A stretch of DNA of 64,000 bases. Origin: Isoetes taiwanensis. Taxonomy: Eukaryota > Streptophyta > Lycopodiopsida > Isoetales > Isoetaceae. The notes below the pieces were generated by a model. The model had not been told where the DNA came from, searched no databases, and saw nothing but the letters and a program-made list of their open reading frames with translations. Positions 1 through 29,410 of the stretch are shown one piece after another (within the stretch, counting starts at the first letter, position 1; every line of letters begins with the position of its first letter). The position numbers and the translations under genes are program-made. The DNA lies in the NCBI GenBank assembly GCA_021234155.1, contig JAJEKV010000052.1, positions 3,032,254 to 3,096,253 on the forward strand, in the 5' to 3' direction.

Positions 1-78
1 ACACTCATTGTTTAGATTTGACTTGATGGTTGTCACACTCGTTGTTTAGATTTGACTTGATGATTGTCTATTTTTCAG
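1..78 (+). repeat. Tandem 35-bp repeat in intron, ending at a splice acceptor
   Basis: Two near-identical copies of a 35-bp unit (core GTTTAGATTTGACTTGATG) end in a pyrimidine run plus CAG at 76-78. This is the 3' part of an intron just before the ParB exon of element A. Confidence 0.6.
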
Positions 79-427
79 GAGGAGGGTGACATGGAGCAAT
101 CCAGAGGATTTAAAGGGCAAGAAATTTTACATTATTTCTGGCAACCACAGTATTTGCGCGGCACAATTCCTTTGTTCGGTCGTCGGCCAGTTGGAGCAGC
201 AACTAGAATTTGCTAAAGTATATGCTAGAAGAAGATCGAGAGTGCTCAACGGAAATCTTACAGACAAGGAATATATAGAGTTGAGTATTCAATGCAACGA
301 AGTAATTGCAAACACCGTCTACAGAGAGCCACTGATTGAAAAACTGCAACAACTTCATCATCAGCACAAGGCTTATGGCTGTCCTCCACAAGGACCGATA
401 GGGACGGCTACAACTTCAGCTTGGAAG
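79..427 (+). pseudogene. Element A ParB/sulfiredoxin-like domain exon of the methyltransferase gene
   Basis: The exon runs from the acceptor CAG at 76-78 to a donor at 428 (AAG|GTATTT). Its reading frame holds FYIISGNHSICAAQF, which matches the ParB/sulfiredoxin pattern of an aliphatic strand, then G-x-H-[RS] and an Ala-rich helix. It aligns with the element B exon, which has YFVLGGTHSFKARRQL at the same place, followed in both by a hydrophobic strand and an L/I-S-x-x-x-N helix. ParB-like domains bind or hydrolyse nucleotides and are often fused to phage and bacterial DNA methyltransferases. Whether this one binds CTP or DNA cannot be seen. The exon itself is open; it is called a pseudogene because its downstream partner at 13,492-15,521 has frameshifts. 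Confidence 0.65.
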
Positions 428-491
428 GTATTTATTCATTTTCTACTCGCCAACATCGCGGCCGCGATCTTGATGACCTTTGCTTCTGCAG
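428..491 (+). other. 64-bp intron containing the element A palindrome
   Basis: A GT...CAG intron by inspection, phase 0, with the 14-bp perfect palindrome ATCGCGGCCGCGAT at 455-468. Element B has a 62-bp intron at 24,412-24,473 holding its own 14-bp palindrome, so the placement is parallel in the two elements. Confidence 0.6.
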
Positions 492-557
492 GATTTCCAT
501 GAAATTGCAACGACCACTTTGAAAGTGCAGGAGCTTAACACTAGACCTGTCCCATGA
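492..557 (+). pseudogene. Short element A exon after the ParB domain
   Basis: After the acceptor at 489-491 the frame stays open in phase (DFHEIATTTLKVQEL...) and reaches TGA at 555-557. It is either a small exon whose donor was not identified or a premature end. The stretch corresponds to the region between the ParB and methyltransferase domains in element B. No function is assigned. Confidence 0.4.
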
Positions 558-1150
558 TGGACCATTAAAGGGCATTTTGAAGGTTTACAAAAAAAATCAT
601 ATAAAATCAAGGGCACAAAAACTGGCCAAAGCCTTTCTAGTTATGGTTCACATAAAAAATACACAAAAATATATCAGCTCCCGTTCTTGTGAGTTATGCA
701 CTAGCAAACCCAAGGGGGTCAAGTACCAAAAGCTTCATGTTCACACAAAGTAAAACTGTCTTAACGAAAAGATTTTTTTGATTTTTTTGGCTATAATGTG
801 ATTTTTCTACACGAGATATAGCATCTCAATCCGAAGTCTGTGAAGGAAGATATAGCCATTCAAACATGACAGGGTCAGAACTGTCTTCTGCTTTCTGAGA
901 ACCAGTACTGGTTCCTAGAAAGCAGTTGTGGTATAAAAACAAGAACTTTTGGAAGGAGATAAATTTTGAGGTCAAATTTGGCATATAAGTAGTTCACGAG
1001 GTCCTCCATTCTAGAAAAATGTTTGTTGAGTTTGAATTTGATATTTTGACTTTTACTTCTAGTTTTAATTTTAGGGAATTTATACAAATGGGTAACATTG
1101 ATACATATGACTCTAGGTTGTCCTCCAAAAAATCACATTATGAAAGTTTA
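558..1150. other. AT-rich intron-like DNA of element A
   Basis: No gene recognised. A/T-rich sequence between the small exon and the first Helitron insertion, probably part of element A's enlarged intron. Confidence 0.4.
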
Positions 1151-3036
1151 TCTTATATTATAAAGTTTTAGCGTATGTCTTGCATCAAACCCTAATTTAG
1201 ATAGTTGAGATCGTCTGATTGCATTTGAAGGCCGAGATTTATCGCACAACTTCCCACCACCATGATTGGCCATGCTCTGATCTCTTAAGAGGAAAGGGAA
1301 AATGACAGAGAAAAGGGCAAAGTGAGAGGCAAAAAGGCATGGGTAAAAGGGAAAGACGGAGAAGGAAAAAGGAAAGGGAAAAGAGCACGAAAAAGGGAAA
1401 GAAAAAGAAAGGGAGAAAAAGGAAGGAAAAAAAGACACTATGAAAAGGAAAAGGGGGAAACGGTGAGGACAGAATAAGGGAAAAGAAAAGGGGAAGGGAA
1501 GAAAAGGAAGAAAAAAGGGGCAACGGAAAAAATGTGAAGACGAAAAGGGTGACGGAAGGGAAAAAGGGGAAGATAAGAATGGTGGAGAGGGAAAAAAGGG
1601 CATGGAAAAATAGAAAGGGAAGGAAAAAGGAGGCGAAAAAGGGAAAAGGGCATGAGGAAAAGGGAGAGGGAAATGAGAGAGGAAGGAGAAAGTGGCATGA
1701 GAAGAGGAAAAGGGTGAGGAAAGAAAAAAAAAGAAAGAAAAAAAAGAGATGGAAAAAGGGAAAAGGGAAAGTTTAAACGCTAAAAAGAGAATGGAAAAAC
1801 ATGCAATAGGAAAAGAGGAAAAGGGAAAAGGGGAAGAGGGTGGGAAAAGGAGGAAAAAGGGCATGTGAAAAAGGTGGAAAAAATGGAATGCAAAAAAGGT
1901 GTGGGAAAATGGAAAGGAAAAGAGAGAAGGAAAAAAAAGGGTGGAAAGGAAAGCGGAAAAGGGCATGGAAAAAGAGAAAAGGATGAAAAAAAGAAGGAAA
2001 AGGAAAAAGGAAATGGGAGGCGAAAAGGGAAAGGGGAAAGAAAAAAGAACACGAGGAATAAGGAGGGAAAATGAAAAAGAGGAAGGGAAAAAAGGGCAAC
2101 TGGAAAAAAAACTGGAAGAGGGAAAGGGTGAGGAAAGGGTAAAAATAAAGGGAAAAAGAGCATGGGGAAAGGGAAAAGAAAAAGAAAAAAGGGGAATAGG
2201 GACGGGAAAAAGGGGAAGAGGGTAAGGAAAGGCGGAAGAAAAGGCAAGTAAAAAAAAGTGGAAAAAAGGGAATGGAAAAATATATGGGAAAAAGGGAAAA
2301 GGAAAAAGGAAAGAGAAAGGGAAAGGGAAAGGGAAAGGGAAAGGGAAAGGGAAAGAGAAAAGGAAAGGGGGAAGGAAAGAGGAAAAGGGCACGGGAAAAA
2401 TGGAAAGGGTGGGGAAATGATGAAAAAAGAAGGAAAGGGAAAAGGAAAAAGGGAGGCGGAAAGGGGGGAAGGAAAGGAAAAAAGACATGAGAAAAAAAGA
2501 GACATGAGATAAAGAAGAAGAGGGTGAGGAGAGGAAGAAAAACATAAAAAAAAAAAGGTGGGGAAAAGGGAATGCAAAAAGGGCATGAGAAAAGGGAAGG
2601 GAAAAGAGAAAAGCAAAAGGAATGGGAAAAGGAAAGGGAAAAAAGATCATGAGAAAAATGGGAAGGGTGGAGAAAGGTGAAAAGGGAAGGAAAAAAGCCG
2701 TCAAAAAAAGGGAAAGGGAAAGGGAAAAATGAGAAGGAGAAAAGGAAGAAAAAGAGGAGGGAGAAGAGGGTAAAAAAAAGAGAGAGAAGGAGAAAAGTAA
2801 ATGTGCAGGGAAAATAAGAAAAGGGAAAAAAGAAAGTGTGTAAGAAAATGAGGAAAAAAGGATATGCAGGATAGAGCAAAGGGAAGGTTATCAAATGTAC
2901 AAAAACCTCTTATAGCCTAGCAATGATGGACTTGGTTTCTATTATATTAGATGTATAAAAATGAGTCTGAGCTGAATAGGTTTCCATCCACAAATGTTCC
3001 CAACATTTGCCCAGCAACGCTGGGCACCATTACTAG
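1151..3036 (+). mobile_element. Helitron H1, non-autonomous, with long polypurine tract
   Basis: Begins A|TCTTATATTATAAAGTTTTA and ends with a 7-bp-stem hairpin GCCCAGCAACGCTGGGC (3,009-3,025), a short spacer, then CTAG|T at 3,033-3,036. TC at the 5' end, a subterminal hairpin, CTRR at the 3' end and insertion between A and T are the Helitron hallmarks. No Rep/helicase gene is present, so it is non-autonomous. The same 5' sequence recurs at 8,375, 28,140 (minus), 43,072 (minus) and 49,429, and the same hairpin ends recur at 8,374, 12,896, 25,209 and 52,302, so this is one local family. About 85% of this copy is a purine tract. Confidence 0.85.
1262..2890 (+). repeat. 1.6-kb polypurine (GA-rich) tract
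   Basis: Almost every base on the plus strand is G or A, with scattered T and C. It includes a (GGGAAA)n block near 2,310-2,360. The long ORFs that can be read through it on both strands (Phe/Pro/Ser-rich or Lys/Gly/Glu-rich) are composition artefacts. It starts about 110 bp inside the Helitron 5' end, as does the tract in the minus-strand copy at 42,310-42,960. Confidence 0.9.
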
Positions 3037-4383
3037 TAAGAATATGAAACCAATGCAAAAACAAGCTCGTGAAAAGAGTAAAAGACATGGTAAATAAAAA
3101 TCAAAAACGATTTCTGTACCTGCCCATTACTGGTCCATAGTCCATTTAAAAATCAATAATATACTTATGTTAGTCCATCTCACGCTCAGTTTTGGGACAT
3201 GAGTACCTCCTGAACCACTTTGTTCACAAAAAATATCTGTTGGTCATTATCTTGAGGATTGTATTAAAATAAATAGCATCAATTATATTATGTCTTCCAT
3301 GTTTATTCTAGATTTGTGCCTTAAAGGTGTGACTTTACAAAATCACATCCTCGAAGTATCTCATATCAAGAAACAAATGCAAAAAGAACCAAGGAAAAAT
3401 ATGAAAAACTTTTTCTATAAAACATCAAGATAGACTGCTATCTGCAGTCCAATTGCAGACCATCATTGGTCCAAATGATTGAAAGTTTAAAAATCAATAA
3501 TGGCATCACTTTAATCAATTTTGATCTCAACTTTCGCATATAGTTTACTTGTATGATTCTCTGTAGGAGAAAATTAGTTGACTATGTGAGCTTGCGTAAT
3601 TTAAGGGTCAGATTGAAGCACAAAGAATTGAGAATTTATGAGGTACTTATGACCAATTGAACCTACATGGACCTCCACTTACACCTTTCAAAAATCATGT
3701 GATCGAAGCTAAAAAGCCATAGTATCATTCTATGGGGCAAAATGGATAAGGCTAGTGAGAGATATATGCTCTATACAATTGGTCTCATGGACCATAAATC
3801 GTGATGCATGCTTATATAAATTAAAACCTTCGAAATAACATGTTACTTTAACATGCAACTAGAGATTTATATTGCCAAGAAAGGTATGCATCCATGAAAA
3901 ATATAATATACATGAAAGATAACCTACATGTAACATTATTCTACTTAGATAACAATGCTTTATAGCAGCAACACAGATATAAAGTTTATGCTAGTAAGAA
4001 ATAAACAGATTTCTTTGTATTTTTTTTTCAATAAGGACATACAACCTATATAAGAGACCTCCATATAAGTCAATGTTCACATTTTCAACTATTTTATAGG
4101 CTTATATGGGGAAAGATAGTGTCTCTTCCATGAACTAAAGAACCATACATATAATGTCATATGGTCTAATTACATATTGCCATGGCTAAACTTCACAACA
4201 TTCACTTAATTCATCAATAAACATCACTAAATATGACCATTGTGGAGTTTTGGAGCTATAATTGTGGAGTTAACTCAACATTTATACTCTAATGTGTTAA
4301 TCCTGCAGCTGTACATCATGTTTTAATCCCAAAAATTGCATAGTTACACTCTAGTTACCCTATATGTAAGTTGATAAGAGTTA
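3037..4383. other. AT-rich unassigned DNA between Helitrons
   Basis: About 1.35 kb with no ORF of interest and no recognisable domain. Most simply read as element A intron DNA left between two Helitron insertions. Confidence 0.35.
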
Positions 4384-13491: not shown

Positions 13492-15521
13492 GTGGCAGAG
13501 GTCATGTGGGCCAGTTCTGGTCCATGGATCAGGAATGGTTCCAGAGACAGGTCTAGTGTTAAAGATGAAAAACAATTCATCTTTATGGATGAGAAGGTTT
13601 TCAAGAAGTTAATGGAAGTTGCCGGACTGTGGGTGAACCGTAAGCTCAGTGACGACCATGGTGAGTTTCCGGACAAGCCATCCAAAGACTTCTTTAACAA
13701 GACCTGGCTCCGGTTGCTACGAGGTATGTCGAATGCAGAGGTGTCACAGCTGCTCGATGAGATTATAGAAGGCAAGACGTATTTAAAGGTGCAGTCAGGG
13801 TATAGCGGGAGATTTGATTGCAAACAACGGGCAACTGACATCAGAACCCTAACTTTTATGAGGCGCGAAATTTTATCTTATGCCACAAATTTGCTGCAGA
13901 AGGATTTCGATAGCTGGGAGGAATTGCTTCAGGCTTTTCCTGATTTGACTGAACAGAGAATACTTGATATATCAGATACCGATACAGAGTACGTGAAGGC
14001 TAACTATAACAAGGATCATACACTAGGTAACCTACCTGTAGCCTTTCTGGAGCCAATCAGAAATATTCTAAAGCCAGAAGAGGCTAGAAAAAGAAAAGAG
14101 AAGAAAAATATTGTCATAAGGATGGCATCCCTACTTCCTCCCCAGTGTCAGAGAATGCCACATTGATATTTATTGACATCCGAGGGATGAACAAGGTATG
14201 GGATTGCAAGAAATACACAGACCTATTTACAAGGATAGCTACCATGACTACTGCCAAAGTTTATCACTTGGTTATTATCATGCGCTCTATGAATTTGCCC
14301 AATTGCTTGTACAGTCAGAAGCAAATTCAGGGAGGTGGCCACCTGTCTTTAGGTTCTTATGAAGAAATGGGTTGGGAGAACAAACGAAGGGTGAAAGAAT
14401 ATCAGTACTATATTAGTCATATGTGCATTAACAGGAGTGATGTTCGTGTAGCACCTGTGCAACCTGAGTTGGAGCTTCGTCTATCTCCACACAACAAGGC
14501 CCCTAAAGCAACACCATTGCCTCCAATGCCGCTAACAGGTAATGAGGATGCCAATGAGAAGATAAAAAAGACGAAGTTTCAAACTCTTTTTACAGGCAAA
14601 CCAAGATACAAATGGGCGGCAATGGAAGGAGAACTTGTATTGAAATGCCAGCTGAAAACCTTGTATGCCTATTATATTGTTGATCAGCTGGTGCCCACCG
14701 ACGGTTGCGTTCTGAATTTCTTTTCGGCTGGACAGCTTCTCGTGTCGCTCTTATGCAAGGCAAAAAGAGCGTGGCCTTTGAAAGTTCAGGTAAAGTGTGC
14801 CGTTTCCTGAGGGCCTTCTTGGAAACGCTTGAGAAAATGGCCAGTCAAACTACGGGGGGATCTGAAGAAGAGGAGAAAGCAGAGAATGCTGAGCCTAATC
14901 CTTTGCTGCCCAACATCAGTATTACCCAAAACACAGATATATCAGGGTTGGATACCATTTTGGATAACCTCGATGCTAAATCCTACAAGGAGAGAATGCA
15001 AGAAACAAAGCGCTTGCTGGACGGAAAAAGGTATTGAAGCTCTCGAGCCCACTTTTCAAAAATTAAGTGCACTGAATGAGAAGATTGATGGGTACATGCC
15101 ATTCTTGACAGGCGAACATAAGTTTGAATACATGGGCGTAGAGCACATGGAAATAGACCAACAGCACATGGAAACAGACCAACAGCACATGGAAACAGAC
15201 CAAGATGAGGCTGTTGGGACACAAGAGCATCAGGTACACTGCAAGAAGCAGAAGCTCTTTCATCCACACGAGATTGCTACTCAATCGGAGAAGGAACTTA
15301 TAGGCGTGAATGGTGCAGAGGAGAGTGAAAATGCGGTGCCTGATTCACATGTGGAGCGCATCGCAAAGGCCATGGGTGTTGAGATTCCAGAGGTCACAGG
15401 TTATTCAGAGATGGACACAACACAAACTATAGAATTGGGTAGAGCGCATGTCATCCGCATGGCCAATGAAATGGGTGTGATACCTGATAGTGTATCTGAA
15501 ACACAATCACGAGAATTATAA
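13492..15521 (+). pseudogene. Element A methyltransferase-like region and C-terminal tail, frameshifted
   Basis: Three frames together follow the element B protein. At 13,492-14,166 a helical linker includes FDSWEELLQAFP and ends in a basic EEARKRKEKK helix, matching DTWEKVKELYP and EERAKLKKKEE in B. At 14,145-14,810, LIFIDIRGM sits where B has LCIADIPYGF, so the Pro-Tyr of the catalytic D-x-P-Y motif IV is missing. At 14,705-15,037, FGWTASRVALMQGKKSVAFE resembles motif I (F-x-G-x-[GT], then an S-adenosylmethionine-binding turn). From about 15,030 a tail with a triplicated (Q)HME[IT]DQ repeat runs to the stop at 15,521. Frame changes near 14,125 (possibly an intron), 14,715 (T-run) and 15,030 (A-run) mark it as broken. 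It may derive from a non-catalytic methyltransferase paralogue. Homology to B is seen; the activity call is inference. Confidence 0.6.
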
Positions 15522-16462
15522 TTGCATTCCTCAAGAATGATTACTGTACATTACTTCCTTCAATGGAAATTTTTGTTTCAGGAATATGTATTACCATATC
15601 TTTTTGTCCCTACTACTACTTCGTGCATGTTTAATGTTAAAAATAATCGCGGCCGCGATCCTCTGTGGCAAATACATAGCTTTAAATACTGAAATGTTTG
15701 TGCTATGCTTGCTCCACTGTACCTATTTTGTACGTAATGCTCTCATATGGTTTTAATAAAAAGCTCATTATTTTGTCTCTTTTCTGCTGCGAAAGATCGC
15801 GTTCGCGATTCTTGCGATAAGATAGAGCATTCCCTCCTACTACATTCTACTCACGATGGATCTTTGCATGAGCTGTAAAAACTATATTTCCGAACAACAC
15901 CGAATCATTGGTAGAATTTGTACAAAAAAATGCCAACTTTTACTCAGTTGCTAGTAGTTTCTGCACTATATGGCTAACCACGAACCTATTTCATGCTAAA
16001 CGAGAATTCCAAATTTCTCTAATTAATTAATTCATGCTTAATGGGGCTTTTTGGTAGCATAGATTAGTGTGCAGGTGCATGGAGCAACATAAGTTTTGTT
16101 AATATTTTCATCCATGGCTACGGATCCGGCTGTGTCATTTCCACAACTCCAGATTTTCATATAATTCTCTAAATAAAGATAGAATTCTACTCGTTTTTGT
16201 CAATAAATAAAAAAATTAGGAACAAGAATGAGGTGCTTTTTGGTGAAGGTAACAGAAGTAATGGATGCAGCTGGGCCTTTCAAAAAGCTACCTGGCACTA
16301 CAATTTGAAATTAGCTAAAGCCCAATTCTACAAGTCCTTCTAAACTCTATGATCCAGATCTTGACAAATTCTCTGTTTAAAGTCATCCCATCGAGTCTCT
16401 GGCCAGCTGGCGCTGCCTGCAAGAATGGGATCTGTAAGTTCCTTTCTACATTATACAAGGAT
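15522..16462. other. 3' flank of element A gene, with two palindromes
   Basis: Holds ATCGCGGCCGCGAT at 15,646-15,659 and the variant with TT at the centre at 15,796-15,809. Beyond that no gene or terminus was identified. An ORF-like stretch near 16,250-16,440 ends at GATCTG|GTAAG-like sequence and could be a host or element exon, but it matches nothing I know. Confidence 0.4.
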
Positions 16463-16493
16463 AACAAGGTGACGGTGCAAACGCACTAATGAC
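16463..16493 (+). repeat. Left terminal inverted repeat of element B
   Basis: 31 bp identical to the reverse complement of 28,364-28,394. Just inside, TGCGTTTGCAC (16,494-16,504) is the reverse complement of GTGCAAACGCA within the repeat, so the left tip can fold into an 11-bp stem. The right tip has only part of this. Confidence 0.85.
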
Positions 16494-16966
16494 TTGCGTT
16501 TGCACTAATAAAAAGCATCTTTCAAAGATTCCCTAAGATACCCTTAAATTCAGCCACTTTTGGGGGGTCAATTAAAAAAATGACCCTAAATTTACGAATT
16601 CGGTAGCCATTTTAGGGGTCAAAATTACCAAAAAATTGGCGTCTTATTAATTTGACATCCCCATTTTAGGTATGAAAATAATAATTTAATTTAGTTGTTT
16701 TAGGTACACATTCAGAAAGTCGCAAAATGAAACAACGAGCAAATTCTTGACAAAATTTAAAGACAGAAACCATAAAATGGAGCCGTATACATTTTTTATT
16801 GCTCAAGGAGCAGCACACATGCTATGCGCGCATAGGCAAGGCACAAAAATAGTTTGCTACAAAAGAAACAAAAATTGCAAAATGCTATGCGCGCATAGCA
16901 GGGATCCTAAGTTTGAAAGACAAACATTGTACAAACTAGTCATGTACAGCTGTACAAATATTCAAA

Positions 16967-17580
16967 TTACACGAGTAGCTTACGCCCTTTAAGAAGAGCA
17001 GGTATTGGAATGTCGTCGTACTCATCAATGCCTTCAGACTGGTGATCACTCTCCTCATTGACACTCTCCTCAATATCGCTTGAAGTGGTGGAAGAGCTAA
17101 CCGCTGGAACGCTGTCCTCGTCTTGTTCAGCTTCGTCCTCGCTATCCTCGCAGAAAGACTTCAACAAGTTTATTGTTGTTCTGCGAAGTCTGTTATCAAC
17201 CTTTAAAGTAAAATCGTAAGCCAAGACTTGAGTTTCAGCCAGGTCCAGATTGTCTAAGTGATTCTTATTCACCGTTTTCCGTCCTTTCTTAAAAGGAATT
17301 ATCACAGGATCATACCGACCAACGAATGGATCTGTATCCTTAGTGGCATACCAGTGAACTTTTATCACTGAGGGTAGGTTGCCTTTATAAACAATGTCTT
17401 TAACCCTTGCAATCCAAAAAGGACGTTCTTCGTCATCGTCAGTTGAAGGTACAACCACTAGCATTCCTTTCTGCAGATCTGCAAGTTTCTCTGGAGTTTG
17501 ACCTTCCTTTTTCTTGAGTGCACGTCGAGATCCCAGGTACATTGCACGATCAACGGGCTCCTTGTTGATAACAAGATTGA
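16967..17580 (-). pseudogene. Element B transposase, C-terminal region
   Basis: The frame from about 17,580 (INKEPVDRAMYLGSRRAL) to the stop at 16,967 gives about 200 residues. A small beta-rich segment (MLVVVPSTDDDEERPFWIAR, then KVHWYA) looks like the Tudor/BAH-like module often seen after the catalytic domain of DUF7869 proteins; that comparison is from memory. The last 60 residues are strongly acidic and Ser-rich. It follows the catalytic exon but in a different frame, so either an intron or a 1-bp indel lies near 17,590. Two palindrome copies (16,822 and 16,885) lie just downstream. Confidence 0.6.
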
Positions 17581-17589
17581 TAATGATTC

Positions 17590-18682
17590 TTACGCAATTC
17601 CTTGGGCATCCTCAGCAGGAGGAGAGGTTTGGCTACCAGGCCAACAAAAAGGAATCTCCAAAGTGATGTTGTTTAAGGACATGGTCACGTCTTTCATGGT
17701 TTCAAAGAAATTTTCCCACCAGCCCTTTTCTTCCTCATTAAAGTACTTAAAACACGAGCTTATGCTTTTCTCCATGCTGGATAGTGAGACAAGAGGATTC
17801 TTGTCTTTGTTCTTCTCAGTGTTGTTTATGGCACTCTTCAGTGGCTGCTGAATGGCTCTTCTCATTTCTTTAACTTCAGGAACACGTCTCAAGAATTGTA
17901 ACCCTGCCTCTGGAAGCCAGGATGCAGAAGTTACAAAGTACTTTCCTTGAAGAATGGCATTACCTTCTTTGAGAAAGAACTTCACATGATGCTGAAAGGT
18001 CAAATTATTCAACTTGTGAATAGCAGGACCTGTGTCAGACTGTCGTTGGAAAATAAATTCATGAAAATCACAAGTCTCGCTAAGCACTTCGACAACTGGA
18101 GTTGGATTGTAGGCTTTCTCGATCACACTGCACAAAGAGTACAGACAAAATGCCTTTTTCCTGCGCAACCTTACAGAAAATCGACTGAACATTTGGTCTA
18201 TTTGATCATGCGTGTGGCCAACAAGTAAGAAGCCAACCTTGACCTTTCGGAAGATACCTAATTGGACCAGCATTGCACAGTAGGCAAATAGAACTTGGTT
18301 TTTATTTTCCCTGCTTGTATTGTCTAGCTGTATGTAGAGCACTGAAGGCAACTTCTCCGTTGCCAGAAGAATCTTGTTCAGTATTGTGACCGTGAGATTA
18401 GGATCACTGTGTATATTTGGGTACCTCAAAAATACTCTGCACTTAACCACGCCCTGAAAAACTAAAGCACCAACTAGATGCAACTTCAGGAAGTCAGCTT
18501 CATCTAAATCCTTAGGAACATTTATAAAATGAGGAAGGGACGTCTTCTTTTGATCCATGCCATCTATTACCACAGACATGTATTCAAGAGGCCTCTCCAA
18601 AGCTTTTTTTCTGTGTTTTGCAAGCTTCTTTCTTTCCAGGGCTTGAGCCTCTCTGTGTTTCTGTAATTGTTGAGTTATTTGA
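17590..18682 (-). pseudogene. Element B transposase, catalytic region (DUF7869/KDZ-like, RNase H-type)
   Basis: Starts after an acceptor (GGTTGCAG at about 18,683 on the minus strand). A Lys-rich helix leads into three spaced acidic motifs: SVVIDGMDQ, then LYIQLDNTSRENKN, then GFLLVGHTHDQIDQMFSRFS. This D...DN..ENKN...GHTH..IDQ pattern is that of the DUF7869 family, an RNase H-fold integrase/transposase-like domain found in many large plant, oomycete and algal elements. It would cut and rejoin element ends. The catalytic stretch is open for 350 codons without a lesion. Lesions or introns lie on both sides. The family call is good; calling it the transposase of element B rests on its position between the terminal repeats. 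Confidence 0.7.
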
Positions 18683-18726
18683 TCTGCAACCAAAGACATT
18701 TGTCAATATCACAGTCACTTGCTTTG

Positions 18727-19140
18727 CTATGCGCGCATAGACACAATGACACGTATTTAGTTTTTCGCTATGTGCGCATAGACAAGCGACCAGGGTACAT
18801 AAAGCATGCTATGCGCGCATAGAGAAGCGACAAGAAAACAGAAGCATGCTATGCGCGCATAGACAAGCGACCAGAAAATAGGAAGCATGCTATGCGCGCA
18901 TAGACAAGCGACCAGAAAATAGGAAGCATGCTATGCGCGCATAGACAAGCGACCCGAAAATAGGAAGCATGCTATGCGCGCATAGACAAGCGACCAGAAA
19001 ATAGGAAGCATGCTATGCGCGCATAGACAAGTGACCAGAAAATAGGAAGCACGCTATGCGCGCATAGACCAAAGTCCTTGCTTTATAAACTGTGCTATGC
19101 GCGCATAGACAAAAGACAAATCTAGTTAACCTGTGTTACG
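18727..19140. repeat. 41-bp minisatellite built on the CTATGCGCGCATAG palindrome
   Basis: Palindromes start at 18,727, 18,768 (one mismatch), 18,809, 18,849, 18,890, 18,931, 18,972, 19,013, 19,054 and 19,095, plus a decayed copy near 19,127. Spacing is 41 bp except one of 40. The 27-bp spacer reads about ACAAGCGACCAGAAAATAGG then AAGCATG. The array lies in an apparent intron of the transposase gene. Confidence 0.95.
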
Positions 19141-19149
19141 AGCGCATAG

Positions 19150-19946
19150 ATATGGGAACCGTAATTTGAATCAAAGAACGTACTTTTCTCGGGAAGATTC
19201 TTTGCCATGGACCTTTTCTCCAATACAGAACATGTAGAACATACTGAGAACCGGTGCCTTTTTGGGATCCTAACAAGATTGAATTCTTGCTTCCACAATC
19301 TTAAGAAGTAAGAGTAGGATATGAACGACTGACTTGAAGACTGGAAGAGATCTCTGTACATGATGTAGACTTCTTTCTTGGTAATGCTGTCCGTAAGATG
19401 ATGAACAGGACTGTTGGGTAGTCGCTCACAGTTTGAGTCAAAGAAGCCCACCAACCATGCTTTTGCTTCCAAGCAGTGCACACCAACTACTTTCTTTGGG
19501 TGACAGTAGTCGTCAATGCATGGATTTCTGTCTAACCGTCTTTGTACCCTTGACATGCGACAACTTCCAATGGCATGTATTCTTTTGAAAGCCAGCTGGC
19601 AAACAGTTACATTCAACTCATAGTATGAAAAACTGTCGCCTCGCTCAGGCATCACGTGATATGCTAGGTAGGATTCCTGGTCACCTTTAGACATTGACAA
19701 GAAGGATTGTCTTGTTTGCCTTAAGGACGAAAAAGGGAAGTTCATTATACACTTCTTTTGACAACAAGCCAGACGCCTTAGCTGCCTCATGTAAGTTAGT
19801 CCCATTAACCGATTTCGCAAAACTGTCCTAAATGCCCTTACTGTAGGGTCCCTCTTAAATCTCTTTTGCACCGGGCCAGTATTTCTCGAGTCGAAAGCTC
19901 GGGGGCTGTTCTGGCTGGAGCCTATATAGGTCTTTCTGGAGTACAA
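19150..19946 (-). pseudogene. Element B transposase, N-terminal zinc-binding region
   Basis: About 265 open codons. Visible marks are a CCQKKC cluster after a basic helix, SCRMSRVQRRLDRNP, an aromatic strand KAWLVGFFDSN, SYSYFLRLWKQEF and RFSVCSTCSVLEK. Cys pairs of this kind and an F-x-x-C-x-x-C just before the catalytic domain are usual in DUF7869 proteins and probably bind zinc and DNA. The exon joins the catalytic exon across the palindrome-rich intron 18,683-19,150. The true upstream start is unclear: the DNA from 19,947 to 20,360 codes a TPSP-rich N-terminal stretch, but only with frame changes. Confidence 0.6.
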
Positions 19947-20360
19947 ACAGGCTCGTCTTCAATAGTTGTGTCGTTAACCTTCTCGCTCTCAACCGAGGAA
20001 CATGGAAACAATGTTCTAGATTTCCTCCTTAACATTTGTAGGTCATCCTCGGCCGACCCTTTGGGTTAACGAGGGCCTTTTTCACGTTGAAGAGGTCTCT
20101 ACGTAATCAATTATGTTTTGCAAGGAACGTTGCAATTCCTGTAGAGGTGAAGGAGTTTCAAAAATTGAGTGGGTCGTGGTGAGTAGGTGAGGCCGAGGGA
20201 AACGCGTCTTGTCGAGTGAGGAGGGAGATGGTGTTCTAAACACGTAAGAACGCCGTAAAACGTGTGTTGGTGAAGGAGTTTGAAAGGAGGTGGCACAATC
20301 AATAGACCGGCGCATTGCTGTATTGGCGACAAAGAAACAAAGCTTCCGGATGGACATCCA
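19947..20360 (-). pseudogene. Probable N-terminal exon(s) of the element B transposase
   Basis: A minus-strand frame at 20,357-20,082 reads through three TPSP motifs (SFQTPSPTHV, FRTPSPSSL, FETPSPLQEL). Another frame just below it gives an acidic segment (SSVESEKVNDTTIEDEP). Such low-complexity N-termini are common in large transposases. Frames do not join cleanly, so the region is either multi-exon or decayed. No start codon is asserted. Confidence 0.35.
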
Positions 20361-21014
20361 CGAAATCTTAGATCTTCACCGCTTTGTCGGGTGTCTTTGA
20401 ACCCCTCGAGGCAATAATGTAAGATTCGAAGGCGGAGATAGGAAACTTTTTCTTGAGTGGCTGCCGTCCATGCTGCAAATGGACAAAAATACCATTCGTA
20501 AAACAAACATGCACCACACCTACTATGCATGTACTAAGTAAGGAAGTACACTAACTAATTAAAATAGAAATAATAGTATCTTGCCTATGCGCGCATAGCC
20601 CGGGTGTAAGATGAACTCTCGTTCCATGCGCGCATAGACAAGATATCAAAAATTACCGCGTGAGAGATAAGCCTCGTTACCTACTTGAGCCGTGGAAGAC
20701 GATTAATAAATTCTATAGCTCAAGCGAAGGAAGACAAGATAAGATACGAAACTGTAAAGGAAGAGCGGGGAAGACGAAGAGACTTTGTGTGGGTTTGACA
20801 CTCCATAAAGGACTGCATGAAATGAAACGCTATACTCTTCATGCATAATCTCATAGAGAATATCCAAGTACTAACATAGACAATAAATAGGAAAGAAGGG
20901 CGCACATTTCTGCATACAGACCGACGCTCCTGGGCCCTCGACCTCCGCCTTCACACTCACTCCACTTTTTTTTACCTATCGAATTCTATAAGAAGCTGCA
21001 TAGACACGCGGCAA
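20361..21014. promoter_or_regulatory. Divergent intergenic region between transposase and methyltransferase genes
   Basis: Lies between two divergent genes and so probably holds both promoters. Contains one perfect palindrome (20,585-20,598) and one with a single change (20,624-20,637). No clear TATA box could be chosen. Confidence 0.4.
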
Positions 21015-21203
21015 ATGGCAGGTGGAAGGTACGTCAAGATCTTAGCTGCTACTTAATTAGCTCACTTTTAAATGTTTTTTGTGCATTATTTGCTTCATTT
21101 GGCTGCCTCCAAAATGATTAAAAATGTCAATTTCTTAAGTATTTCTGGCCTTCTTCCTCTGTTCTAGGTATTTTTTGTTTGGTTTGAGTCTTTTTTTTAA
21201 GCT

Positions 21204-21542
21204 TTGCCTATGGGCGCATAGACACAAAGCTTTTTTCTTAGGCTTTGCCTATGCGCGCATAGACACAAAGCTTTTTTCTTAGGCTTTGCCTATGCGCGCA
21301 TAGACACAAAGCTTTTTTCTTAGGTTTTTGCCTATCTTGCCAAGATAGACACAAAGCTTTTTCTTAGGGCTTTGCCTATAACGATAGACACAAAGTTTTT
21401 TTTCACGCTTTGCCTATGCGCGATAGACACAAAGTTTTTTTCTTAAGCTTTTGCCTATGCCAAGATAGACACAAAGCTTTTTTCTTTTGTAGTATGCCTG
21501 TCACTATTGAATTGGTTGAATTGGTTGGCTATGCGCGCATAG
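21204..21542. repeat. Palindrome array in intron 1 of the methyltransferase gene
   Basis: Units of about 41 bp (TTTGCC, palindrome, ACACAAAGCTTTTTTCTTAG) start at 21,208 (one mismatch), 21,249 and 21,290, then decay to the right. At 21,332 the palindrome has become CTATCTTGCCAAGATAG, a different but still symmetric sequence. A single perfect copy follows at 21,529-21,542. Confidence 0.9.
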
Positions 21543-23692
21543 GAAAATGATGTCTTAATACTTTACTGTTCTTAATATTTCAGTAAGAAGAAAAACCTTG
21601 CACGGGGTAGCCAGGATGATGCAGGTGTATCCTCCCAAAAGGTCGCCAAGAAGAGGAGAACGCCGAAGGATCCAAGTCAGGATGTTTTGGCTCCAAGTCA
21701 GCAGCATTTTCAGGAGGCCGATGATGGCTCCTATTTTTGTAAGGATCAGCAGTGGTTGCTTGTCAGGGGTACCGGTAAACCAGCAACTGTGCATTTTTTA
21801 TATTTATACATTTGTTCTGCGACTGGCAAGCAAACACAGGACCTAGAAAGCTTCAGAAGATGTGGCAGGCTTATAGATGTTGAGCTGTTTGGTATGTACC
21901 ACATCAAGTGCACGACCACCACCAAGGGCAGTCAACATATATATTCTGTGGATAGTTCATTTTTTAAGCTGAGTTTGTCTTCTCCGGAAGATATGCAAGG
22001 CTACATTCAGGCAAGAATGAAGAGTAAAATTGTAAGTGTTATTTTCCTGCACGAGAAGACTTTACCAACATGTTTGGTCTATGACATCATAGGTTTTGTT
22101 TGCAGGATCTTCTTTCTATACTAAAAGATCTTCTTTTGAACAAGGATCATCTGTTAAGTTCTAGCGCACCTCCTACTAAGCTGCTGAAGGATGCCATGCC
22201 ATCTCCTGCCAAGCTGCCATGCCATCTCCTGCCAAGCTAATCATCTCCAGAATCTCAGAAACTGTTGAGTTGGCAACAGTGGATGAAGATGAACCTTCGG
22301 AATCCGAATCTGAGGAGGAAGAGTTTGAGGTTGAAGTGGTGGAGAGGCCCAGAAAAAAGAAAGCCAAAAGAAATTATTACAAGGCAGGCCTGGTGACTGA
22401 CATTGCTCCACCAACTAGCAAGGCATCAAGACAAGGCACTAAGGTAACTTTGCCTCCAGCACCGGGTACAAGGATTGCCAGTAAGAAAAAAGACATGGCT
22501 TCTAGGAAGCTCGAAGAAATTGAGCTGAGATGTCGTGTGCCTGGGATCGTGCACCTGCAGGTTGATTGTGTTAAGTTGTGCCCAAAGGATGAGTCTGGCG
22601 AGAGACCTTTGCATGTAAGAAAAATTTACTCTGGTCATTTGTCTGCTCTTAAGGAACGTATAAGGGACAGACCAAATGCAGCTACAGCACCACACATTTG
22701 CATTGTTGACCCTTCCCAGTGCACGGAAAGGGATTCGTTTGTAAAGGAAGAGGATGAAAGCTACAGATATTTTGTTTTGGGTGGCACTCACAGCTTTAAG
22801 GCGAGGAGGCAGCTTTATAAAGAAACTAAAGAGCACTGCTTCTCTCAAATATTTGCATTTGTTTACGTGGGTGTCACTGACTCTGAAGCCAAGTTGCTTG
22901 CTATGAGCCACAATGTGGACAATGAATATCGGATGAGCATGAGCTTCATTGATAAAATTAAGTTTATGCACAAGGAATACGAGCTTTTTAGGTCGGAGCA
23001 TAAGGGTGACAAAGATATAAAGGATGATCAAAACCTATATCTGGCTCTTAAAGAGCAGTGTGGTACAGAGTGCTGCTTAACGTACAACTCCAGTGATGCC
23101 AGAGCATCTCTTGTGAAGTACTTCCAACTACTTCCAACTAGCTTTTAGGCATGGACGTGTAAGATAACTTTCTTCTCCAAGTTCTTTGACCATGCGCGCA
23201 TAGCCATTGAGTTTTCTTACCTTTATTTCTTTCTTGTCCCTTTTTAGGTCTGGGAACTTCAAGAAATTTTTTTTTGATATGTTTGCTGAGGGTACACTGA
23301 AATCTAAAGGGAAGGTGAAGGATCCAAAAAGAAAAAAAAAAATGAACCTGCAAAACAGAAGGACATGGGTATCATGGTTTGGAGGGAAATGCAAGGTCTA
23401 AGAAATACAGAAAAAGTTTGTGAGGTGCTGCAGAAGGTGGTGAATGGCCACTTTAGCTTGGAAGAAATGCAGGGTGAATTCAAACAGTAAGTTCTTGCTA
23501 GTTCTCGCTGGTAGTTTACGTTCCCGAGTTTTTTAACACTCCTTACTTTTGCAGCCAAAAGGATTGTGCACTCTGTCAGCAGCACTCATGGTTCACCTTA
23601 ACTGTGACACCTGGGAAAAAGTTAAAGAATTATACCCTACATGGTCGTCGGATGAAAAGATAAACCAATACGCTTCAAATTTTACAAACTGG

Positions 23693-24072
23693 GTAAATTT
23701 TGTTGTTCCCCTACTTATCTTGTTGTGTGCCTATGCACGCATAGCACTACAAGAAGTCCGTTACTGTGGTGCTATGCGCGCATAGGCTGACACTTCGAAC
23801 TTTTGTTTTTTTCTTCTTGCTGTAAGTTGTTTTCTTGTTGTGTGGCTATGCGCGCATAGCATTACGAGAAGTCCATTACTGTGGTGCTATGCGCGCATAG
23901 GCTAACACTTGGAACCTTTGTTTTTTCTTCTTACCAAGGCTGTTTTCTTGTTGTATGTCTATGTGCGCATAGCACCAAAAGAAGTCCGTTACTATGTTGC
24001 TATGCGCGCATAGGAAGACATTTTGAACTTTCGTCTTCTTGTTTGTACTAAAGCTGTGTTCTGTGGTTTTAG
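23693..24072 (+). repeat. Intron with three palindrome pairs, each pair 41 bp apart
   Basis: Palindromes at 23,731 (one mismatch), 23,772, 23,846, 23,887, 23,959 (one mismatch) and 24,000. Within each pair the start-to-start distance is exactly 41 bp; pairs repeat every 113-115 bp. The spacer (about AAGAAGTCCGTTACTGTGGT) is unrelated to the spacers in the two other arrays. Confidence 0.9.
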
Positions 24073-24411
24073 AAAAAGAAGGACCCGATGCCGCCAGGGT
24101 TTCTTAACATGATTAGACTTGCTAAGGAAGAGCGCGCCAAGCTTAAGAAGAAGGAAGAAGCTGAGCAAAGTTTTGTACCAACAGAATTTGAAAGGTTTGA
24201 CATGTTTGGCCAGAATTGTTTATACCAGATATATCATGGAAATTGTGTCAAACTTGACCATACGTTGAAACCTGGCAATTATTCGTTATGTATTGCTGAT
24301 ATTCCTTATGGATTCAAGCTACCTGATAGTCGTGGAGACGATTCTCCATTTACTTATGCTGAATTTGATTCTTTCTTGAGACGTTTCGTCAAAATAAATA
24401 CTGCACCTTTG

Positions 24412-24473
24412 GTAAGTTATTTCTTTTTGCTATGCGCGCATAGCACACAATAACTCATTGGTTGCGGTTGCAG
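24412..24473 (+). other. 62-bp intron carrying one palindrome
   Basis: GTAAGT...TTGCAG with CTATGCGCGCATAG at 24,430-24,443. The reading frame after the acceptor is only resumed with a 1-base shift, so the junction may be damaged. Confidence 0.6.
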
Positions 24474-25208
24474 GTTGAAGATGAATGTAAGAGGAAATGG
24501 CGGTGGTGCAAGGCTTGTAAATGTTTGGGAACAGATGCACATTGGTTACCACAGCATTGGTGGGCAGAGAAGCATTTTGCACTATAATACTGCTGGCATG
24601 GACTTGCGTAATGCGTTTCAATTCCCAGCTGTCATTCATAAATTAACAGACCCAGTACACCAGGATCGTGTAGTCAATCCTTATCAGAAGCCTCAATAGC
24701 TCATTAATACCCTTTTAGAGATGTTTTCACAGCCAGGTGACTGGGTCGTCGTTGCCTTCTCAGGGTCAGGGACCACCTTGGCTTGTGCTTTAAAAAAGGG
24801 TCGCAACTGCCTTGCAATTGATTTTGATAAGGATTCTGTGGTATATATAAAATCCAGAATAAGTTCTCTGCACAGCCTGCCAGATGAAAAGCAGGAGGTT
24901 GGCCTTAAGGATAAGGATGGTAATCCCGCAGCTTCAAGCTCAGAGCCTTTGCCGCCACTCACCGGGAACACCAACGATCCGGCCGAGTTCGTTGAGCTTG
25001 TTCCTGTGGAAGAGATTCAAAAGGTTGTGGAAGAGAATGATGCCTCAGACACTGAGGAAGTTAATCCTGATAGCTCTACTACGGTTCTCCCTCCTCCAGA
25101 TTCTGATGATGAACTTCCTCACAAGGAAACTCTTCTTGATATATAATGTGTGCTAAAAAAATGAAATTTGTTTATGTGCCTATATTATTGTATTACATTA
25201 TTGAAATA

Positions 25209-28140
25209 CTAGTAACGGTGCCCAGCGTTGCTGGGATAAGTTCAAAGCCTGTAGATGTTGTACCCGCAATGAGAAAAGGTGCAGTAATAATCCAACTTTT
25301 GTAACTTTCTATTATAAGAAAAAAAAATTCAATTAACGTCGTCTAAAAGAAATCTAGCTCAAACATGGACCATTCAGCAAGTGTAGACATCACCTTCCTT
25401 TAAATTTACATGATCTAGCATTTTTGGATGGACAGACCTGCAAAGCAACCAACACTAATGATGTGCATTGTAAAAACACATGTATCATATTTTGCCTGCA
25501 TTATTGGTATAGCAATTGATCTCATGTATACGGCTTGATGAATTCTCAAAAGTTTCTGTCATCTATAAACGAAATACCTTTACATCCCTTTTGATTGATC
25601 ATGGCAGAAATTGATATAACACAATTGGTTACAACTTTCTTTAAATTGATATTGGTAAAGTAAAACTATTATAACTTCATTTATAGTTCAAACGTAGATT
25701 ATTCAGCAAAAGTAGATGTCAATTTCTTTTGAAATAACCTAACTGGTTTATTCCTAGCACTTTTGGATGGACAGATCTCGCAAAGCCGCCAACACTAATG
25801 GAGCGTCGATTGTAATATACAAATATGGAATGTTCTTTGCAAATGAACACGCCCATGTCACCTCTAGCGTGAATCCTAGTTAATATTCACGAATTTGGAA
25901 GCGGGGCAAACTTGCTCTAAGCGTGAATTCTAGTTAATATTTAGGAGGGCGGGAAGAGGGGCAAACTTGCAAAAAAAGAACATGGTAGACTATGTTGGAT
26001 ATCGGAGGAAAACATATTTTTAAACAGAGACTTAGGTGTAACAATTGTCCCGCATTTCCAAGACAAACCGGATCTTTGCTTGAGAAAACCCACAAACATA
26101 AATGTTGCTCCATCATTCAGTTCACAATTGGTTCTTTGCTTGTGCACCTCTAAGGTTTGCAAACCTGTTTTTGCACAGGTTGCATGGCTTCATGTAGGTG
26201 TAAGTCTAGCTGCCGTCATGATTCTCGTAAATTCATTCTCACGCAAAAATTAGCAAGATATAATGGAAAAGCTTATTAGACTCCCAAGCGATGCATGCTT
26301 GAGATGAAATTAGATGTGCAATGACAAAGCAGATAGTTCATTCTAACATAACATATGTTGTTAATACGTTTTCAAATTGATTGCAATATTAAGTCGATTG
26401 AGTGAGTGATGCGGATAGGCTCGCGACAAATAAAGCGAAGCGTTTTGTAGTAGTAAGTGTTATGTAGCCTTTACTTGATGGCATAGGGACAACATTGCAA
26501 GCGTGCCAAGCTATTCAAAGATGGCATTTTTCGAAAAAGGTAGAGACCACATTGTTGAATAAATTATCTCAAGTGGTGTGTCCCTTTGTAGCAAGCTCCA
26601 CTTATAATCTCAGAAGATGCATAATAACTCTTCAAACTATGGAAACAGAATTAAGTTGCATAAGTTTACGAATCCATGAGAAGGGCAAGACTGTATGTAG
26701 AGGATCATAGTGGAACATCATAGTTAGCTAGTTGCAAAGATATAAACAAGCTCCTCCTTGAGTGAATGAAGAGAGAGATAGAGCTTGAGGTGGTTTGGCA
26801 AGAAAAAAATGGAATGGGGATTACAATTTGCTAAAATATAGCCAATAATATCTTCATAAAATTAACTACCCGACAGAAAAAACGAAAATTTTCAGAGAAA
26901 ATTTAACTACCCGACAGAACAGAGATACTTGAATCCCTGAGAATGTAAAATAGAGGCCATGGCATAAGATAGCATTCAAACTTTGGCCCTTCAAATAAGC
27001 GTATAAAAAGACCTCGAGTTCTTCATACAATTCTCGTATCACTTACTCATGGTTAAGAATGATATTGTTGGCGGAGAGAAGATCGGTTTACCAACGTGAA
27101 ATACCGGATTTTGTTGTTGTTTACGCACATAATCTCGCAAAAGAAAAACACAGCTCGGTTAGCCATCTTGCCAAGCATGGGCAAATCCGAATATAGAAAT
27201 TATCTCCGCATCTTCATGTTTCCCAAAAGCTCCGAGAAAATGTAAGATGGAAAATGCACATAATCTACGCAAAAGAAAAAAACAGCTTCGGTTGGCCATT
27301 TTTTGGCAGATAGCTTAAATCATTTAATTACGAGAGCATCCTAAGCTCGGATGGATCACAGAGATGAACGAAATACTACGGCGGTGAAGCCCTTGTACAA
27401 AACAAAATCCGGGAAAAAACAATTTCGGTTGGCCATTTTTGCGAGATAGCTTAAATCACTTAATTATCGAGCATAGATGGGCCTAAATACTACAGCAGAT
27501 GAAGCCCTTATACAAAACAAAATCCGTGAAGTAAAGGAGCTTACAATGCAAAGAATACCAGGATGGGTTATAATGTAAACGTATCCAAGCATGTCCGGTC
27601 ATGCCAGGGTGTTACCGTTACATTCTCAAGCATCCAAAACTGACCCTTTACAGCCTCTTGAAGAATTTCTTTTGGTGACCATAATTCAGAATAGTCCATA
27701 GCTTCCCGAAGAAAAACTCTACCTGGCTTTTATCGATGTGCAAGCCTGCATATTCTGCGCCATAGCCCTTTGAAAAATCAAGCCTCCAGCTATTGTATCT
27801 GATGGGTTCCTTGAGCTACTAAATCCAGTTGATCAGACCTTCCTGCACCTTTGAATGATGCGGTTGTATAAACAGATGCATGGCAACCTCGGATGTTATT
27901 GAGTACAACCGCTGTGAATGAAGAGTCGCTTCCCACCTGTTTCCTTCTTACGCCAGACTTGTCCCAGGTTCCCATAAAAGAATGGCCTCCCCTAGACGGG
28001 ACAGCCATGGCCCGATATCTCAGCCTAACCCTAAACGTGCCATTATCTTGGCCTTTGGATGCGATGCGATGGAGAACTTAGGCCGTCGATTAGGGCTAGG
28101 GTTTCATTCACGACATACAATATAACTTTATAATATAGGA
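25209..28140 (-). mobile_element. Helitron H3, nested in element B
   Basis: On the minus strand it starts A|TCCTATATTATAAAGTT at 28,140 and ends with hairpin CCCAGCAACGCTGGG, spacer and CTAG|T at 25,209. No Rep/helicase gene found. The interior (25,213-28,090) is non-coding to my eye, with direct repeats: a GCGTGAAT..TAGTTAATATT..GGGGCAAACTTGC unit twice near 25,865-25,972, and a CAAAAGAAAAACAGC..CGGTTGGCCAT unit two to three times between 27,120 and 27,480. Removing it would bring element B's methyltransferase 3' end close to its right terminus. Confidence 0.85.
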
Positions 28141-28363
28141 TAACTTTGTTGTCTATGCGCGCATAGACTTCCTTCCTTCCCTTTGTATTTTGTTTCGTAA
28201 GAAAGTGCATTTTCTTAGTGTGTCTTAACACAAAATCTGTCGCCCGCTTTTAAAATGGCCATATTTGGAATGCAACTTTTTTTTTATAGTTGTTTTTTTT
28301 TTTAATGGTCAAAACTGCCGAATTTACGTTTTTTGGAAAAAGGAATCTGCAATTGCACCACAG

Positions 28364-28394
28364 GTCATTAGTGCGTTTGCACCGTCACCTTGTT
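28364..28394 (-). repeat. Right terminal inverted repeat of element B
   Basis: Perfect 31-bp inverted copy of 16,463-16,493. The last palindrome of the element (28,153-28,166) lies about 200 bp inside it. Confidence 0.85.
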
Positions 28395-29410
28395 GGATGT
28401 GCATGAACAAGTTGATGAAGGATAAATTTTCTGCTAGGTATTTAGCATGAATTGTATATAATGGGCTACCTTTAGATATTTTAGAAGGTAGCCCATTATG
28501 TACAACTCAGGTTGTTCTTGATAGCGAAGTTCATGTTTAGTCTTTCTAAATAATGAACTAAGAAGACATAAAAAACCATGTCAACGCTATACGATAAATA
28601 TAGTAGATCAACAGACTTCGACTTTTGAAGGCAGATGGACGTTAATTGCATTTGAATGGTAGCTCATTCCTCGATTCTCTGCAAAGAAACTTATGCTTTT
28701 GAAATTGCGGATTCAGATGATCTTTGAGGGTAAGGTATTCTGAAGTGTCGTGAGTTTAGAGTTGTTTAAATGCAGATGTTGATGTTTTTAGACGCTCCAC
28801 TATAAACAAAATAGAAATAGGGTTGTCTTTATTCCCTGGCGACTATTCCTATGACGACACGTGGCATTAGCCAACATTCTAGAATGGAAGTTGGGTTCGT
28901 TCATTCCGTAAGACTGGCTGCACAGGTTAGATTTAAAGTTCTTCTCTTTCCCACTGCCAGTCCATTAGGGTTCTACAAGCTCTGCCGCCTCTAGTCTTCA
29001 TGTTGATCACAACGTTCAAATAAAGGGTTCTTAATTTTTCATCCAACTATGGGGTTCTTTGTTCTTTGCAGGTAAAACTCCGTCGAATCGACTTCTAGAA
29101 CATTGTTTTAGCAAGATTCGAGCTTCGTGTCTGCAGATCCCGGTAAATTTAAACTGCTTTGTTCTTCTACAGGTTTTCTTTGCAGGTTCGCAGAGTTGTA
29201 CTTCGTAGGTCCTCTACTTAACCGCTTAGCTCGTTGCAGATAAAGTGTGCAAGATCTTTACGTGTAAACCTTTATTTTTGCCAAATCTTTGCAAATAAGC
29301 TAAATCTGAGATTTGTTCTTGCTTTTATTTTTACTGTATGTCCCCTATTTCTATTTTGCAGGGGAATGGATGTTGGTCCTCCATTCCTGGTTTTGCAGGT
29401 CACCCGTTGT
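28395..29410. other. Unassigned flank, with a hairpin
   Basis: No gene recognised. A strong inverted repeat, ATAATGGGCTACCT...AGGTAGCCCATTAT, spans 28,458-28,497. Otherwise ordinary AT-rich DNA that may be the pre-insertion target of element B. Confidence 0.4.

Follow-up and report, generated by a model that had tools for sequence, protein, structure and literature searches.

Structure and copies of the element

The window analyzed here is a 64,000-nucleotide stretch of the quillwort Isoetes taiwanensis (assembly GCA_021234155.1, contig JAJEKV010000052.1, positions 3,032,254 to 3,096,253). Positions 16463 to 28394 of this window are one insertion of a multicopy DNA transposon with two genes in divergent orientation: a transposase gene with a DUF7869 domain on the minus strand and, on the plus strand, a gene for a predicted ParB-like protein fused to a DNA methyltransferase (Table 1). 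An earlier sequence-only reading had proposed a single transposon carrying both genes, bounded by perfect 31-bp terminal inverted repeats (TIRs) with GGAT on both outer sides. The repeats and the flanking GGAT were found as described; the TIRs in fact comprise 34 nt with one mismatch and are perfect over the outer 31 nt. The rough chance estimate for a perfect inverted 31-mer pair in 64 kb is about 4e-10. The proposed borders held, while the proposed extent had to be reduced, because a nested insertion, about 2.93 kb long, interrupts the element. Read in the reverse direction, this insertion starts with TC, contains a 15-nt hairpin and ends with CTAG at an A^T site; these features are hallmarks of Helitrons. 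It was missing from all four other element copies compared, one of which (L041) aligned only 63 bases past it. As the nested insertion is not counted, the element itself measures about 9,001 bp (9.0 kb). Its mode of transposition is presumably cut-and-paste.

Copies were sought in the whole genome (1,658,258,908 bases, 1,110 contigs). For each TIR end, 40 matches with 92-100% identity were listed (40 of 557 candidates scored for the left end and 40 of 504 for the right end). Twenty pairs of ends lay on one contig in the same orientation, spaced by 7.6 to 42 kb (8.0 to 10.1 kb in 13 of the 20). Eighteen of these copies were flanked by an identical 4-bp duplication, compared to 3 of 380 deliberately mismatched pairs; the two copies without one were located on C941 and C1106. 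The duplicated sequences included GGAT, TGAG, AGAG and CTGG. Two copies (C963:2996160-3005661 and C1051:3960517-3969635) had 12-base flanks that were nearly alike on both sides; these shared flanks point to a probable duplication of the region subsequent to the insertion, or else to two haplotypes in the assembly. The duplication of a further copy (C1056b) lies in a short tandem repeat and carries little meaning. Dropping one of the two copies with common flanks and C1056b left 16 of 18 with an identical duplication. The TIRs thus bound the whole element, as the sequence-only reading had assumed, and their ownership by a small unrelated element was rejected, since the ends pair across whole elements. 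An empty site was sought with one joined-flank search, which recovered both halves of the flanks along with two weak, partial hits but no empty site.

The linkage of the two genes was scanned at the best 12 of the 40 listed loci per element side. The transposase was detected at 12 of 12 transposase-side ends and at none of the 12 methyltransferase-side ends. Conversely, the methyltransferase was present at 11 of 12 methyltransferase-side ends and at none of the 12 transposase-side ends; the only end lacking it belongs to the window copy itself, in which the Helitron lies between. The two genes are linked in other copies as well, as the sequence-only reading had required. Beyond the pairs, five methyltransferase loci (on C926, C1028, C1042, C1045 and C1064) were about 15 kb or less from one of the 150 scored DUF7869 matches, and the genes were divergent in all five when compared by eye. 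The methyltransferase search gave at least 153 matches at at least about 47 places in the genome (48 of 5,864 candidates scored). DUF7869 is hugely expanded in this genome: there were 9,902 first-look candidates, all 150 scored matches were above the cut-off, and only a handful of these were located near a listed methyltransferase locus. Prokaryotic contamination or a viral origin was rejected in view of the predicted introns and of dozens of diverged copies on many contigs, together with two null results: the ParB-like exon had no match in phage records, and catalytic exon 6 of the methyltransferase had no relative among viral contigs.

The transposase and methyltransferase genes

The assignment of the minus-strand gene to the DUF7869-type transposases was borne out by a match to PF25273 (E 2.9e-51, 17590-18702). 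Residues D127, N133, V161-H165 and D169 were invariant across 33 aligned sequences. The reading frame changes near 17590, and no clear intron separates the DUF7869 exon from the C-terminal exon. The C-terminal region recurs in DUF7869 proteins of Riccia and of environmental sequences. The named relatives of the transposase come from a liverwort (Riccia) and a fern (Adiantum); a literature search on DUF7869 found no paper.

For the plus-strand gene, a ParB-fused beta-class methyltransferase had been claimed, and the methyltransferase part of this claim stood. In beta-class DNA amino-methyltransferases, motif IV (D-x-P-Y) precedes motifs X and I. The catalytic exons of the element have the same order (DIPYGF, then NPYQKP, then FSGSGT). 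The N6_N4_Mtase profile PF01555 matched the window at 24700-25146 on the plus strand (E 3.6e-8) and another copy with an E value of 5.7e-15, above the cut-off. A phrog_67 methyltransferase match reached 1.4e-15; a CcrM model matched at 2.8e-11, yet far under its curated cut-off. The closest named relatives in the PDB were RsrI (1.8e-7), CcrM (5.4e-7) and MboIIA (3.5e-6), ahead of any named N4-cytosine enzyme. RsrI and CcrM are adenine-specific. Seven environmental relatives of the catalytic part (151 to 256 amino acids) were found, six of which contain IADIPYGF/APLWR or NPYQKP motifs, and a protein search with a long methyltransferase read-through gave no match among 7,992 scored candidates.

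The ParB-like part fared less well: it has weak profile matches and none in Pfam. The label rests on several weak yet concordant matches. The ParB model TIGR03764 was the top NCBIfam match for all three proteins compared (E 0.009-0.09, under the cut-off), and the ParB-like family phrog_723 was the top PHROGs match for two of them and the second for the third (E 0.11-0.25). A profile comparison against nine ParB sequences gave a P value of 0.0035 in the expected register, compared to 0.37 and 0.83 for two catalytic-exon controls.

Substitutions in the ParB-like and catalytic exons were counted between copies. Between two subfamilies, synonymous sites were saturated (synonymous divergence [pS], 0.69 to 0.84), whereas nonsynonymous divergence (dN) was 0.055 to 0.23. 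Within one subfamily, dN/dS ranged from 0.08 to 0.97, as expected of copies decaying after insertion. Judged from these rates, the methyltransferase family is under strong purifying selection as a protein. One further methyltransferase locus, L036 (C1089:6218259-6222197), differs from both subfamilies with a pS of 0.73-0.82 and seems to be a third lineage.

A phased palindrome array

The element contains a repeated perfect 14-bp palindrome, CTATGCGCGCATAG, which the sequence-only reading had not noticed. With up to three mismatches allowed, 28 matches were found in the window (1.22 expected), and all 28 are inside the element. Predicted exons cover 5,437 of the 9,001 bp, yet not one of the 27 palindromes with at most two mismatches overlaps them. 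The exact palindrome occurs 1,551 times in the genome, compared to about 3 expected by composition and none for the reversed control. Among methyltransferase loci of at least 3.5 kb, 33 of 34 contained at least one exact palindrome (the 34 include the window's own place twice, and several overlap), as did 12 of 13 diverged loci with 67-81% protein identity.

The spacing is regular. When gaps of 15-129 bp between neighboring sites were measured, 107 of 197 were exactly 41 bp and 137 were 39-42 bp (overlapping loci were counted twice). In two introns (18719-19151 and 21191-21499), the palindrome units form direct tandem repeats of about 41 bp with different spacers. Grouping the flanks of sites with at most one mismatch gave 36 clusters, of which 24 had the exact core, 9 differed at the second base or its mirror, and 3 differed at another base. 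The flanks lean toward TTG before and CAA after the core, which produces a longer weak palindrome.

The palindrome was also related to the ends of the element and to its transposase. Of the first 50 listed genomic sites, 27 (on 9 of 18 contigs) had an exact end 10-mer at a distance of at most 15 kb, compared to 1.6% by chance. Two stretches of 3.1-3.6 kb (C23:182420-185998 and C79:8216-11348) have exact end 10-mers inverted at their borders and palindromes inside; they are perhaps internally deleted nonautonomous derivatives. At 10 other DUF7869 loci (of 150 scored), whose transposases shared 44 to 59% identity in the longest segment, CTATGCGCGCATAG was absent within 1.5 kb in every case, and no perfect palindrome of 10-16 bp occurred three times. 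The corresponding stretch of the window holds 11 exact palindromes. Two further comparisons were dropped. Substitution counts gave lower pairwise rates inside the palindromes, but the sites had been picked as good matches in one copy, which biases the test for selection. CpG decay as a sign of protection (transitions of 4.3% inside versus 8.3% outside) suffers from the same bias and was not used.

Table 1. Positions of the transposon, its genes and its repeated sites in the window
Feature	Position	Strand	Remarks
Target-site duplication, left copy	16459..16462		4 bp, GGAT; directly outside the left TIR
TIR, left (transposase side)	16463..16496	+	
Palindromes CTATGCGCGCATAG, 28 sites	16822..28166 (span)		21 exact, 6 with one mismatch, 1 with three; at 16822, 16885, 18727-19149, 20585, 20624, 21208-21303, 21529, 23190, 23731-24013, 24430, 28153
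Transposase C-terminal exon	16970..17611	-	Frame differs from that of the DUF7869 exon
Transposase catalytic exon, DUF7869	17590..18681	-	D, LDN and GHTHxxID motifs
Predicted transposase intron	18682..19159	-	Densest palindrome array, 41-bp repeat
Transposase N-terminal exon, predicted	19160..19958	-	Start approximate
ParB-like/DNA methyltransferase gene	21015..25146	+	Seven exons predicted from splice sites and frames; disrupted in the window copy
Methyltransferase-gene exons, predicted	21015-21028, 21584-22031, 22106-23158, 23248-23486, 23555-23692, 24073-24411, 24474-25146	+	
ParB-like core	22591..22923 (approximate)	+	VRKIYSGHL...VLGGTHSFKARRQL...LLAMSHN
Methyltransferase motif IV	24298..24315	+	DIPYGF
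Methyltransferase motifs X and I	24660..24830 (approximate)	+	VNPYQKP..., FSGSGTTLACAL
Nested Helitron-type insertion	25209..28139	-	Edges +-1; not part of the element
TIR, right (methyltransferase side)	28361..28394	-	
Target-site duplication, right copy	28395..28398		4 bp, GGAT; directly outside the right TIR

Outside the element, open frames lie to its left at 13492-15521; the one tested (13492-14166) had no significant Pfam match. Positions 1-4000 of the window show a strong strand skew (GC skew, 0.32-0.40; AT skew, 0.29-0.40).

Candidate function and relation to known transposons

The palindrome is most simply explained as the target of a protein, because it is constant in introns despite the saturation of nearby synonymous sites, recurs at intervals of about four turns of the helix and is enriched in a single transposon lineage. 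ParB proteins and many methyltransferases commonly act on palindromes. Since other DUF7869 genes lack the palindromes nearby, the ParB-like methyltransferase is our best guess for the binder. We rate it an even bet that this protein binds CTATGCGCGCATAG and modifies the DNA of the element, a putative self-marking. The palindrome array makes an element that methylates its own DNA more plausible. In the working model, the DUF7869 transposase would recognize the inverted ends and insert the element with a 4-bp duplication, as its family membership suggests. The product of the second gene would join a ParB-like part to a beta-class DNA amino-methyltransferase, both assigned by homology. Its ParB-like part would bind the arrays, which have a 41-bp phase and lie in introns, in the intergenic region and close to either end, and the methyltransferase domain would methylate element DNA at the palindromes, most likely at adenine. 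Adenine is the likely target because the closest named solved enzymes, the PDB relatives being the sole basis here, are adenine enzymes. The mark may let the element proteins distinguish the element from host DNA, and it may control the divergent promoters or ward off host silencing. The window copy, itself disrupted, would depend on other copies. We hold one fuller version tentatively, as falling short of an even chance: the protein would load on parS-like arrays (14-bp core, 41-bp phase) and add a bacterial-type base, by which element DNA would be told from host DNA in a genome holding 1,551 exact sites.

The main rival for the role of binder is the transposase of the same lineage. The palindromes could be its internal and subterminal binding sites, with the methyltransferase as a separate accessory that would modify the element or tune transposase binding, an arrangement that we consider possible although unlikely. 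In other large plant DNA transposons, subterminal repeats serve as transposase binding sites. Palindromes near the left end (16822, 16885) and the right end (28153) would fit such a role, as would the array in the transposase intron, and the transposase sublineage is as tightly tied to the palindrome as the methyltransferase is. However, the largest arrays lie far from the ends, within introns of both genes, and the lack of repeated palindromes near 10 of 10 other DUF7869 genes argues against a general transposase feature. That all 27 palindromes with at most two mismatches fall outside predicted exons, many of them in introns, is also what would be expected if they acted as RNA or DNA structure (intronic hairpins, splicing or small-RNA signals) and were bound by neither element protein. 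This explanation is improbable: palindromes are found in the intergenic region and outside the two genes as well, the 41-bp phasing better suits protein-DNA binding, and the flank trend (TTG...CAA) is symmetrical on the two sides.

Two other possibilities concern the second gene itself. It may have been captured by the element as passive cargo, and the disruption of the methyltransferase in the window copy would fit. We regard this as highly improbable, as the methyltransferase is found at 11 of 12 ends, has been kept across subfamilies with saturated synonymous sites (by which cargo was already disfavored) and has counterparts among the ParB-methyltransferases reported in algal transposons. 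Least probable of all is a role in partition or replication coupling, in which the ParB-like protein would load at parS-like palindromes and spread, the methyltransferase role being minor or lost; a ParB-like region and arrayed palindromic sites would accord with it, whereas motifs IV, X and I show little or no variation in the aligned copies and strong purifying selection acts on the catalytic exons.

Several observations also weigh against self-marking by the ParB-like methyltransferase. The absence of palindromes near other DUF7869 genes cannot separate the methyltransferase from the transposase lineage, because both differ at those loci. The ParB-like exon had no match in Pfam, the hhalign probability of the ParB profile comparison was just 9%, and a PDB profile search returned no ParB but two nucleosome-assembly chains on an acidic stretch (E 0.03) and one unrelated chain; the structure model of this exon was poor (mean pLDDT, 37.7). 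Furthermore, the methyltransferase gene of the window is not intact. It has a frameshift at a 23-bp tandem duplication (22192-22237), more frame changes near 23130, 23265 and 23341 and a TAG in frame at 24697; relative to L039 and L040, its catalytic exon lacks 95 bp at 24408. Frame breaks were also seen in all four other copies read through by exon mapping; some of these may stem from mapping or from indel errors in the assembly, as several copies have single exons that are open. Among the methyltransferase loci, L036, the exception among the 13 diverged ones, lacks an exact palindrome, and just one is present at each of L023, L030 and L034; L036 may have another target or may have decayed. 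The diverged loci show matches of 72-82% to two different arrays of the window, which makes the arrays related in part, and an old duplication could account for some of the 41-bp spacing. Finally, for the remaining 23 of the first 50 listed palindromes, no exact end 10-mer lay closer than 15 kb, which suggests that some palindromes lie in decayed or other elements.

The combination of transposase and ParB-like methyltransferase, which the sequence-only reading had taken to be undescribed, is not new, because ParB-methyltransferase transposons of algae are already in print. The 21.5-kb transposon Sola1-1_Ec32 of the brown alga Ectocarpus has, on the strand opposite its transposase, a ParB-like protein with an N4/N6 methyltransferase, and its authors suggest that proteins of this type may bind the transposon that encodes them and modify it (PMC12477816). 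The quillwort element likewise has a (weakly) ParB-like region and an N4/N6 methyltransferase in one predicted protein on the strand opposite the transposase. It differs in size (about 9.0 kb) and belongs to another lineage, and the PMC12477816 passages on the algal element describe no palindrome array. Similar ParB-methyltransferases occur in transposons of green and red algae, whose host lineages differ (Iyer 2011; Petroll 2025, as cited in PMC12477816); the red algal paper (Petroll 2025) is cited there also for giant EnSpm elements with accessory genes. Prokaryotic counterparts, likened by annotation and not by alignment, are ParB-methylase fusions of phages, such as QBX14016 of Streptococcus phage Javan117, where the ParB-like N terminus is part of a gene annotated as a DNA modification methylase; the stretch seen carried no annotated transposase.

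As to the superfamily, the 4-bp duplications fit Sola and not Zisupton. Sola elements are described as having 4-bp duplications, TIRs of at least 11 bp and mostly sizes of 2-9 kb (PMC10741241), and as encoding a DDD-type transposase and being present in the moss Physcomitrella (PMC10741241, PMC3627910). The quillwort element agrees in duplication length, TIR length and size, and its transposase is likened to theirs by description only; Sola2 duplications are AT-rich in these descriptions, in contrast to the GGAT, TGAG, AGAG and CTGG found here. The sequence-only reading had filed the transposase as KDZ-like (Kyakuja-Dileera-Zisupton). KDZ elements with TET/JBP genes likewise carry a gene for a DNA modification enzyme, although theirs is a dioxygenase and not a methyltransferase (PMC12730594). 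We rejected membership in this group because that source gives duplications of 8 bp, not 4 bp, for Zisupton and for one Dileera element. Passages of a Chlamydomonas comparative genomics study (PMC8226300) name Zisupton and Kyakuja elements and do not mention ParB.

Neither a land-plant case of the combination nor the palindrome was found among the open-license PMC papers that the searches listed. Within these searches, three things are new: the occurrence in a land plant, the statistics on linkage and duplications across many copies, and the palindrome array as a candidate target. The array extends the algal observation by a possible missing piece, namely, the DNA sites that a ParB-methyltransferase might recognize. 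Functional targeted N6-adenine or N4-cytosine DNA methylation in land plants is disputed. The element offers a specific candidate enzyme family, which is under purifying selection, in a plant genome and together with a specific candidate target. Since the I. taiwanensis assembly is based on nanopore ligation libraries with Illumina polishing (PMC8566536), this candidate target would be readable directly.

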